Shown here one piece after another: positions 16,865-21,175 of a stretch of DNA of 64,000 nt; positions within the stretch are counted from its first letter, which is position 1; every line of letters starts with the position of its first letter. The stretch lies in contig NZ_NIDE01000017.1 of NCBI RefSeq assembly GCF_002197845.1, forward strand, positions 976,712 to 1,040,711, in the 5' to 3' direction. The notes under the pieces were generated by a model that had not been told where the DNA came from, ran no database searches, and saw only the letters and a list, made by a program, of their open reading frames with translations. Both the position numbers and the translations under genes were made by a program. The DNA comes from Fimbriiglobus ruber (lineage in GTDB: Bacteria; Planctomycetota; Planctomycetia; Gemmatales; Gemmataceae).

Positions 16865-17509
16865 CTAAAGCAATTCAAATAATTGTTTCACAGGCACACG
16901 GAAGCCCAGCAACACATCGCCGCCATCCAGAGTATCGGCCTCCGTAAGCTCGATCGGGTCAGTGTTGCCGGTGTAGACGCGGATGGTTCGCGTCGCCGGG
17001 TCGACATACCACACGAGCCGCACGCCGACTTGAATATAGTCGTCGAGCTTGCGATCCATTTCCCGAGTCGTATTGCTGGGGCTAATCACTTCGATTGCGA
17101 GGTCGGGCACGAGGTTTGGCACGGGCTCGGCCGGATATTTCCGGGCCGGCAGGCGGTCCCAGCGGGTAAACGAACCGTCCGGGATTCGCACCAACCCACG
17201 CATCAACTGCATCGTGCCATCCGCGCCCAGTAGCAGTCCGAGGTTGCCGGATTGCTTACTAAACATGCCGATCAGCACCATGAGTTCCAGCGCAACGGCT
17301 GATTCCTTCGCGCCCATGGTCTTCTCCACCAGCGTTCCGTCAATCAGCTCACACAGCCGATCTTCCGTATCGTGGATGCGGACAACGTCCTCTTCCGTGG
17401 CTGTACCCGGGGACGGGAACAGGCGGACCCGCTTGGGCGAGATGCCGCCCAGACTTTCGAGTAAGTCATCGATCGTATCAAAGCCCGTGCGGATTTCGGT
17501 CTGGGACAC
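16865..17509 (-). CDS. Uma2 family (DUF820) endonuclease-like protein, copy 1
   Basis: 214 aa. PD-(D/E)XK-type fold: N-terminal ELIDGTLVEKTMGAKES, then PDLAIEVISPSNT with the active-site Asp and Glu and DYIQVGVRLVWYVDP towards the end. Uma2 proteins are very numerous in planctomycetes and cyanobacteria; biochemical role unknown. Clearly a tandem duplicate of the next gene (27 bp upstream), sharing the N-terminal layout and the segment GLVRIPDxSFTRWDRLP. Confidence 0.92.
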   Translation of the reverse strand: MSQTEIRTGFDTIDDLLESLGGISPKRVRLFPSPGTATEEDVVRIHDTEDRLCELIDGTLVEKTMGAKESAVALELMVLIGMFSKQSGNLGLLLGADGTMQLMRGLVRIPDGSFTRWDRLPARKYPAEPVPNLVPDLAIEVISPSNTTREMDRKLDDYIQVGVRLVWYVDPATRTIRVYTGNTDPIELTEADTLDGGDVLLGFRVPVKQLFELL

Positions 17510-17536: not shown

Positions 17537-18181
17537 TCATAGTTTCGCGAAAAGCTGCCTCACGGGCAACCGAAAGCCCGGCAGCACGTCGGCTCCGTCC
17601 AGCACGTCGACCTCGGTGAGTTCCGTTGCGTCGGTCGAGCCGGAGAAAACGCGGACGGTCCGCGTCGCCGGGTCGGCGTACCACACGAGCCGCACCCCGC
17701 AGAGGATGTATTCCTTGAGTTTCCGTTCCATCTCGCGGGTGCCGTTTTCGGAACTGAGGACTTCGATCGCGAGATCGGGAATGAGATCTGGGATTGGCTC
17801 GGCTGGCACTTTCCCGCCCGGTAGACGGTCCCAGCGGGTGAACGAGCAGTCCGGGATTCGCACCAACCCGCGCATCAATCGAAACGCACCGTCCGCGCCG
17901 AGAAGCATCCCGCGGTTGCCGGATTGGGCGTTAAAACTTTGAACGTGGAATGCGAGTTCGAGTGCGAGGAAAGACTCGCGGGCTCCGGCTGTCTTTTCAA
18001 CAAGTGTCCCGTCGACCAACTCGCACAGTCGATTTTCCCTGTCGTGGATTCGGATGACATCCTCGACCGTCGCCGTTCCCGGGTGCGGGACCAAATGGAC
18101 GCGCCCGGGCGGGATACCGCCCAGGCTTTCGAGTAAGTCGCCGACCGTTTCGAAGACATAATCAGGTGCAGTCTGGGCCAC
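17537..18181 (-). CDS. Uma2 family (DUF820) endonuclease-like protein, copy 2
   Basis: 214 aa, the same length as its neighbour and about 60% similar by eye. Key motif PDLAIEVLSSENGTREMERK keeps the Asp and Glu of the nuclease fold, followed by LVWYADPATRTVRVF. The pair probably arose by local duplication and is co-transcribed after leuA (34 bp from the leuA stop), though that spacing does not show a functional link to leucine synthesis. Confidence 0.92.
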   Translation of the reverse strand: MAQTAPDYVFETVGDLLESLGGIPPGRVHLVPHPGTATVEDVIRIHDRENRLCELVDGTLVEKTAGARESFLALELAFHVQSFNAQSGNRGMLLGADGAFRLMRGLVRIPDCSFTRWDRLPGGKVPAEPIPDLIPDLAIEVLSSENGTREMERKLKEYILCGVRLVWYADPATRTVRVFSGSTDATELTEVDVLDGADVLPGFRLPVRQLFAKL

Positions 18182-19802: not shown

Positions 19803-19842
19803 CGTCTCCTCGTGGTCGAGAACACGCGGTCTACGAAACGCA

Positions 19843-19876
19843 AACGGCCCCGGAACTCCTCAGTCCCGGGGCCGTT
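19843..19876 (-). terminator. Candidate attenuator hairpin in the leuA leader
   Basis: Arms AACGGCCCCGG and CCGGGGCCGTT form an 11-bp GC-rich stem with a 12-nt loop between the leader peptide stop and leuA. It is followed on the minus strand by a weak T-rich stretch (TGCGTTTCGT) rather than a clean T-run. The leader-peptide segment CCCGGGG (19923-19929) is complementary to CCCCGGG in the first arm, so an alternative pairing is available. Confidence 0.6.
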
Positions 19877-19894
19877 GTTGAGCGATTCAGAGGC

Positions 19895-19975
19895 TCAGCC
19901 AGCGCGGACAGAGGAACTCACCCCGGGCAGCCGGAGAAGTAGAATGTCCAAAAGTCGCAGGGCCGATGTACGCAC
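19895..19975 (-). CDS. Leucine-rich leader peptide upstream of leuA (candidate)
   Basis: A 26-codon frame from GTG 19975 to TGA 19895 reads VRTSALRLLDILLLRLPGV followed by SSSVRAG. It has seven Leu codons in 26, including CTA-CTT-CTC in a row and two more within a few codons, and ends just before the hairpin ahead of leuA. This is the layout of ribosome-mediated leucine attenuators known in Proteobacteria and Actinobacteria. The SD is weak (GGAAAG) and an in-frame GTG further upstream (20017) exists, so the exact start is unsure. Confidence 0.6.
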   Translation of the reverse strand: MRTSALRLLDILLLRLPGVSSSVRAG

Positions 19976-20361
19976 GGGAACACTTTCCGGGAGTTCAGAT
20001 AAGGGAATCTTACCCACCGATCGGCACGGGATCAACTGGGAGTTGAAATTCTCAACCGAATCGAGCGGCTACGGAGCGTCGCGGTGCCGCCCGTCGGTTA
20101 CGTCCCGTGGAAAAATGCCGGCTCATGAGGCGGCTGAGGTCGAGTAAACATCCCGCCGCAATAGCCCCCGCGCCGAACGCGGGTTGTTATCTATCGCCAG
20201 CGAAATGACCTGAACTGCTGATTCCAGCCCCTTTTCTCAACGATTTACGGAAACGCGAAATGGCCCTGCTCACCGTTACCCGCCTCGCGCAGTTGGCATT
20301 GTGTGGTTCTGAGCGAACGGTATGGTCGTGTGCAAATACGCGGACTGTCGGAGGGGGAATC
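19976..20361. other. Intergenic region upstream of leuA and the PLD-like gene
   Basis: About 385 bp between divergent transcription units. It should hold the leuA promoter upstream of the leader peptide and the promoter of the PLD-like gene. A frame opening at 20260 in phase with the PLD-like gene gives a 34-residue extension that is not family-like and is not used. Confidence 0.4.
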
Positions 20362-20986: not shown

Positions 20987-21143
20987 TTTAGCCACAGAGG
21001 TCACAGAGGTCACAGAGAAGTAGAGGAAGGCGAGAGACGCCGCAAATTAAAAGTCTGCATACGAATCGTGATTGACAGAGAAGCGTCTCTCTTACCTGCA
21101 TGAATTTCTTATCTCTGCGTTCTCTGTGACCTCTGTGGCTAAA
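20987..21143. repeat. Inverted repeat pair bounding 157 bp
   Basis: A 22-bp perfect inverted repeat, left arm starting TTTAGCCACAGAGGTCACAG (20987-21008), right arm its complement (21122-21143). The left arm is followed by a partial direct copy (GAGGTCACAGAG). The 113 bp between have no gene. Similar 'GCCACAGAGGTCACAGAG' sequences occur in many unrelated bacterial genomes, so this is probably a dispersed repeat of the kind that folds into a long hairpin between genes. Confidence 0.75.
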
Positions 21144-21175
21144 ATTTGCTCTTAAGCACACCACCAAGACTCTCC

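Follow-up and report, generated by a model that had tools for sequence, protein, structure and literature searches.

A probable leucine-responsive, ribosome-mediated transcription attenuator of leuA in Fimbriiglobus ruber and related planctomycetes

The stretch of DNA analyzed here (the window) spans 64,000 nucleotides of the 12.36-Mb genome of Fimbriiglobus ruber, a member of the Gemmataceae. It carries leuA on the minus strand (Table 1), for which the best match among the named records listed was in a Limnoglobus assembly, at 81% identity. No other leu gene was seen directly downstream of leuA, and the next ORF on the same strand had no NCBIfam match. Two adjacent 214-amino-acid ORFs downstream of leuA (minus strand, 16865-17509 and 17537-18181) look alike by eye; the ORF at 17537-18181 gave no NCBIfam match. 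The next upstream ORF, at 20260, is divergent from leuA and resembles phospholipase D-like nucleases at a score below the cut-off. An inverted repeat around CCACAGAGGTCACAGAG / CTCTGTGACCTCTGTGG was seen by eye at 20988-21150.

Table 1. Features of the leuA locus, in positions of the window
Feature	Position	Strand	Remarks
leuA, 2-isopropylmalate synthase, 528 aa	18216..19802	minus	NF002086, 783 bits (cut-off 532); TIGR00973, 736.3 bits (cut-off 598.7)
Imperfect U tract TTGCGTTTC, 3' of hairpin	19835..19843	minus	5 T in 9 bases
Segment 4, terminator 3' arm, AGTTCCGGGGCCGT	19844..19857	minus	14-bp stem, -29.4 kcal/mol
Segment 3, terminator 5' arm	19862..19875	minus	core CCCCGGG, 19871-19865
Leader ORF, 26 sense codons, (M)RTSALRLLDILLLRLPGVSSSVRAG	19895..19975	minus	GTG start 19975-19973; TGA stop 19897-19895
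Segment 2, CCCGGGGT, antiterminator 5' arm	19920..19927	minus	in leader ORF, right after last Leu codon
Segment 1, CTTCTCCGG	19931..19939	minus	can pair with segment 2 (CCGGGGTGAG), local stem of -9.3 kcal/mol, from MFE folds; putative role
CTA-CTT-CTC, consecutive Leu codons	19934..19942	minus	candidate control codons, from sequence reading
Candidate promoter TTGATC (20035-20030), 17 nt, TAAGAT (20012-20007)	20007..20035	minus	8/12 consensus matches

Upstream of leuA, at 19975-19895, the minus strand bears the leader ORF that the earlier note had described. Seven of its 26 codons specify Leu (CTG, CTT, TTG, CTA, CTT, CTC and CTG), three of them in the consecutive CTA-CTT-CTC run. The GTG start is favored because the leaders of relatives start alike in a comparison by eye, for example MRTLSQLLDLRLLRAPGAVHSFA in L009; no Shine-Dalgarno sequence was evident by eye before this GTG, and the detector scripts took an inner TTG start (18 codons) for the window's leader. 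The TGA stop lies 92 nt from leuA. CTA and CTT are absent from the 42 Leu codons of leuA itself and supply three of the leader's seven (CTT twice, CTA once). Six of the 725 stop-to-stop intervals in the window that contain an ORF of 10-40 codons reach five Leu in eight codons; thus, a Leu-rich mini-ORF alone is a chance event of about 1%.

The GC-rich hairpin that the same note had placed between leader and leuA was recovered as ACGGCCCCGGGACT-GAGG-AGTTCCGGGGCCGT at 19875-19844 on the minus strand, with 14 pairs at -29.4 kcal/mol and a distance of 41 nt to leuA. The 211-nt stretch folds at z = -2.70, with 3 of 200 shuffles folding as well, and the hairpin is by far its strongest element. Since the upstream ORF is divergent, this hairpin probably does not terminate a neighboring transcription unit. 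A consensus terminator scan of the window did not list it, probably because of the imperfect U tract (TTTGCGTTT). A constitutive intrinsic terminator or transcript-stabilizing hairpin before leuA, beside a frame that is Leu-rich by chance, would suit both a hairpin so much stronger than any other element and a kind of mini-ORF that chance yields at about 1%.

The earlier note had proposed that the leader be sought in relatives, and there the comparison bore it out. Upstream regions of leuA were scored with a detector that required an ORF of 10-40 codons with at least four Leu in eight codons and, at most 110 nt downstream, a hairpin at least as stable as -12 kcal/mol whose next nine bases hold four or more T. 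A previous hairpin picker sometimes chose the wrong hairpin (e.g., in L025 and L108); the final detector searches downstream of the ORF stop. A Leu-rich leader with a terminator was detected in 112 of 142 leuA upstream regions; the controls gave no hit among 284 dinucleotide shuffles and two among 142 antisense strands. Positives comprised 70 of 82 regions in the Gemmataceae (own copy included) and 42 of 60 hand-picked, nonrandom loci covering 16 other families of the Planctomycetia (f2-f17), 13 of which had positives. The family sample was drawn from 95 genomes, 94 with a leuA match and 82 with an upstream region and readable gene start, F. ruber included; the 60 other-family loci came from the score-ordered matches listed, in which 146 of 151 other-family genomes had a match. 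By detector criteria the device is lacking from 30 of the 142 genes, including all four examined of genus g35. By eye, the detector skips some real-looking copies (L025, L093), so that 112 of 142 may be low.

The 112 detected leaders had a median of 22 codons and 7 Leu and ended in TAG (58), TGA (46) or TAA (8). When 18 leaders of one genus were aligned, two columns were Leu in 18/18 and 17/18 (CTC or CTT) and two further columns were Leu in 14/18, through three or four different Leu codons. The joint retention of leader and terminator in 112 of 142 regions, against none of the 284 shuffles, and the keeping of Leu through different codons argue against a chance frame and make a constitutive hairpin beside such a frame very unlikely.

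Among the matches listed beyond the main sample, 14 of 80 leuA loci passed the detector, several of which look like chance; they include two family members (L146, L147) and three verrucomicrobial loci (L180, L186, L214). The three verrucomicrobial genes have Leu-rich mini-ORFs and terminator-like hairpins in a similar layout, so the device may reach beyond planctomycetes. A set of 78 genomes included 18 of the phylum, from outside the class, that gave a leuA match at 1e-100, and 4 of these 18 upstream regions passed: L299-L301 (f34, 47-48% identity) and L284 (f39) have Leu-rich leaders with terminator-like hairpins before leuA.

Relatives also bear on where transcription begins. A sigma-70-like site, TTGATC-N17-TAAGAT, ends 31 nt 5' of the leader GTG, from which a transcription start near 20000 is predicted. 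Of 105 leaders, 65 had a promoter-like site, defined by at least 8 of 12 consensus bases (TTG..., 16-18 nt, TA...T), in the 110 nt before them; the same search hit 42 of 2100 shuffles and none of 105 antisense strands. This count leaves out seven of the 112 detected leaders, whose upstream sequence was shorter than 90 nt. A stricter promoter scan of the window listed no promoter upstream of the leader. The earlier note had named a transcription start mapped downstream of the leader as contrary evidence; the candidate site lies upstream of the leader and is of a kind enriched in relatives, and the stricter scan did not list it.

The nine bases after the hairpin held at least six T in 69 of the 112 detected copies and five in the window's copy. 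This imperfect U tract would fit a leader ORF that acted on translation and not by transcription termination, whether by aiding reinitiation, by coupling or by hiding the leuA start, a mode suggested for the LEU element of Actinobacteria. Short upstream ORFs of Planctomycetes are also described as peaking at short spacing, which was proposed to aid reinitiation (PMC4833913). However, the effect described there concerns spacings of about 10-11 bp, and the window's leader stops 92 nt from leuA. Moreover, the hairpin lies upstream of the leuA start rather than over it, and hairpin and T-rich tail are conserved together. An action on translation without termination is thus highly improbable.

The leaders favor rare Leu codons. 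CTT made up 43% of the Leu codons in 26 GC-rich leaders of the family, compared with 3% in the leuA genes that follow; in family f3 the corresponding values were 36% and 7%. In other families the enriched codon was CTA, at 24% of leader Leu codons versus 0% in leuA for f4 and 36% versus 2% for f6 with f11. In all these comparisons, loci fetched as short stretches contribute only the first part of leuA. Such rare-codon use is a further argument against a frame that arose by chance. The sensitivity of particular Leu codons has been discussed, with CUA as the control codon of the Salmonella leu attenuator, and the shift of the enriched rare codon from CTT to CTA between lineages offers a natural test of the selective tRNA charging theory treated in the same source (PMC1183508).

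The leader also holds a sequence that can compete for the hairpin. CCCGGGG, which had been proposed to pair with the first arm, does so in computation: CCCGGGG(T) at 19927-19920 pairs with CCCCGGG at 19871-19865 at -17.2 kcal/mol for the core, and none of 20 shuffled leaders paired as well as the window's segment 2. Over the 112 leaders, pairing with the first terminator arm averaged -21.6 kcal/mol, compared with -16.7 kcal/mol for shuffled leaders (single-base shuffles, 20 per leader). All 20 shuffles were beaten by 38 of the 112 antiterminators, the window's copy among them, and fewer than half by four (L026, L070, L123 and L127). The paired stretch overlapped the interval from -20 to +12 around the leader stop in 106 of 112.

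Covariation was evaluated in the 58 leaders with a TAG stop, a set that leaves out the window's copy (TGA) and most of its nearest relatives. The anchors were the TAG for segment 2 and the terminator's first CCC for segment 3, a choice that avoids a circular alignment; four rows anchored on the wrong CCC (L006, L007, L104 and L135) were kept in. In register, 69.7% of cells were paired; one step off, the values were 56.7% and 45.2%. None of 2000 partner shuffles (mean 65.8%) reached the in-register value. With one row for each of 43 genera, 70.2% of cells were paired versus 66.3% after shuffling (sd 1.1). Position -1 paired in 35 of the 58 leaders (C-G in 16, U-A in 15), and the A of the stop codon was mismatched in 30. 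With arms this conserved, partner shuffles are exceeded by a modest margin, in values uncorrected for phylogeny. The antiterminator of TAG-stop relatives covaries modestly, beyond the controls, and this stop-anchored antiterminator is at odds with a constitutive hairpin.

A terminator and an antiterminator alone would equally fit an RNA that senses a tRNA or a ligand (T-box, riboswitch), or an attenuator bound by a protein, either of them using the hairpin, with the ORF incidental. What is conserved, however, tracks the Leu codons and the stop codon, and when the window region and 16 representative loci were searched with the Rfam 15 covariance models, T-box included, no family reached its gathering score. 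A sensing RNA or a protein-bound attenuator of this kind is accordingly most improbable.

In every free RNA that was folded the terminator was preferred, and antitermination must therefore be kinetic. In many relatives the leader stop codon lies inside the antiterminator arm, so that a ribosome at the stop would mask segment 2. Pairing of segment 2 with Leu codons was found in 19 of 42 leaders of the window's subtype and 56 of 70 of the other subtype, counts that carry no shuffle control, and for the window's subtype the four-segment anatomy is only partly supported. With an assumed footprint of +15, stalling on the CTT or CTC of the run would put segment 2 itself under the ribosome, which places the halt at CTA or earlier. 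The leader peptide might instead act after its release or as an arrest peptide, and a tail, SSRVG/SSRF, is indeed strongly conserved in the leaders of genus g6. By eye, and uncounted, most leaders of other genera are devoid of this tail, and the region before it overlaps the pairing segments, which makes an effect of the peptide itself extremely unlikely.

The genome of F. ruber contains a second gene of the same enzyme superfamily, the citramalate synthase gene cimA (TIGR00977, 682.7 bits; cut-off 450). Citramalate synthase carries out the first step of a route to isoleucine. Upstream of this cimA (at 1020684 of G000:C14) there is an Ile/Val-rich leader with a terminator (L002:1303-1452); in this leader, MFPVLPATRIAITAAQGVRTVVVVSTG, the sequence GCTTCGGGGC adjoining the stop can pair by eye with GCCCTGAAGC of the terminator. 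For 20 cimA genes among the matches listed and the F. ruber copy, an Ile/Val detector with a threshold of five of eight codons (Leu detector, four of eight) was positive in 13 of 21 upstream regions, compared with 0 of 210 shuffles and 1 of 21 antisense strands. The Leu detector was positive in 0 of these 21 upstream regions and fired on 2 of 210 shuffles and 1 of 21 antisense strands; conversely, the Ile/Val detector was positive in 0 of 82 leuA upstream regions of the family. The codon read by the leader thus follows the pathway product, Leu for leuA and Ile/Val for cimA, and such pathway-matched codons are not expected of chance frames.

The Leu detector was positive in 0 of 30 ilvB upstream regions of the family, one of which (L236) has only 159 nt upstream. 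A broad Ile/Leu/Val detector fired on 1 of the 30 (L243), apparently a spurious hit, with a stem that begins at the ORF stop and a long way from the gene; ilvB was rejected as a further attenuated gene. Inspected by eye and unscored, the leuS and trpE upstream regions of F. ruber showed no such device.

Two other sequences were seen near cimA. The 14-mer GCGCAGGGAGTGCG lies in the cimA leader (L302, G000:C14:1020537-1020550), where by eye it belongs to a possible hairpin whose loop is GGGAG. The F. ruber genome has the 14-mer once, and 11 of 41 genomes searched contain it, F. ruber included; it stands just upstream of cimA in all five others compared (G006, G033, G035, G049 and G066). A 92-base stretch, 82% identical between its copies, occurs at only two places in the genome, window positions 20178-20269 and L315 (G000:C14:1020314-1020405); the first copy precedes the leuA attenuator and is oriented away from leuA, and the second precedes the cimA attenuator and is oriented towards cimA. 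Among the remaining 94 genomes of the family, one had a weak 25-base match to this stretch, which had no Rfam match.

Collectively, the parts of the locus, their conservation, the covariation in relatives and the codon specificity, all read from sequence, suggest that the region upstream of leuA is very probably a leucine-responsive, ribosome-mediated transcription attenuator, as the earlier note had proposed; its function in vivo, from transcription start and leader translation to termination and leucine dependence, would take the following course. Transcription would start upstream of the leader, and a ribosome trailing the polymerase would translate the 26 codons. When charged tRNA-Leu is ample, the ribosome would clear the Leu codons and arrive at the stop. 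Segment 2 would then be out of play: in the window's copy it would be paired with segment 1, and in many relatives the ribosome at the stop codon, which falls within segment 2, would mask it; segments 3 and 4 would form the terminator, and leuA would not be made. When Leu-tRNA is short, the ribosome would stall on the rare Leu codons, segment 2 would capture segment 3 ahead of the synthesis of segment 4, and transcription would run on into leuA.

The leu attenuator of Salmonella and Escherichia coli has a leader peptide with clustered rare Leu control codons and mutually exclusive antiterminator and terminator structures before leuA. The proposed planctomycete attenuator shares the clustered rare Leu codons, the exclusive structures and the position before leuA, a likeness drawn from anatomy. 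It differs in its enriched rare codon, which is CTT in the Gemmataceae and f3 or CTA in f4, f6 and f11, in the stop codon that many relatives have within the antiterminator arm, and in that no other leu gene was seen directly after the window's leuA. In the trp attenuator of E. coli, the terminator forms when a ribosome that has reached the stop codon blocks segment 2. The relatives whose TAG falls within segment 2 match this arrangement, although the amino acid is different and the four segments are only partly supported in the window's subtype.

A Leu-rich leader ORF before leuA also characterizes the actinobacterial LEU element (Seliverstov et al. 2005, PMC1262725). That element is described as a candidate pseudoknot in which Leu codons pair with the leuA Shine-Dalgarno sequence, other attenuator elements being missing (PMC1262725), whereas the window's leuA has a terminator-like hairpin and an antiterminator. 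The Corynebacterium ilvB uORF and the Staphylococcus aureus ilvD attenuator, as described in PMC11109978 and PMC5794164, likewise combine branched-chain codons, a terminator and an antiterminator; they belong to other phyla and other genes, and before ilvB of the Gemmataceae the Leu detector found 0 of 30.

The earlier note knew of no such attenuator in planctomycetes, and our literature search agrees, having found no earlier description of attenuation in the phylum, with at least one likely relevant review outside its scope. A 2010 survey stated that, to its authors' knowledge, no leader peptide system had been shown outside the Proteobacteria and Actinobacteria before their own case in Firmicutes (PMC2965389). 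Classical attenuation is thus most likely extended here to planctomycetes, a phylum for which that search yielded no description.

Segregation of transcription and translation has been reported for Gemmata in a 2014 study, as cited in PMC5287468, PMC5394234 and PMC6212462; some ribosomes are stated to lie with the DNA, the extent of segregation being unclear (PMC6212462). An attenuator of this type needs a ribosome on the nascent leader and fails under full separation, and its conservation in the Gemmataceae therefore argues for coupling. We consider it likely that the leu and Ile/Val attenuators of the Gemmataceae reveal ribosomes on nascent transcripts beside RNA polymerase, and that the segregation reported for Gemmata cannot hold for these genes. 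If so, attenuators would be a genetic read-out of coupling that is measurable in living cells; the conserved switch bears on the old dispute over segregation in Gemmata and offers a coupling assay in the family.
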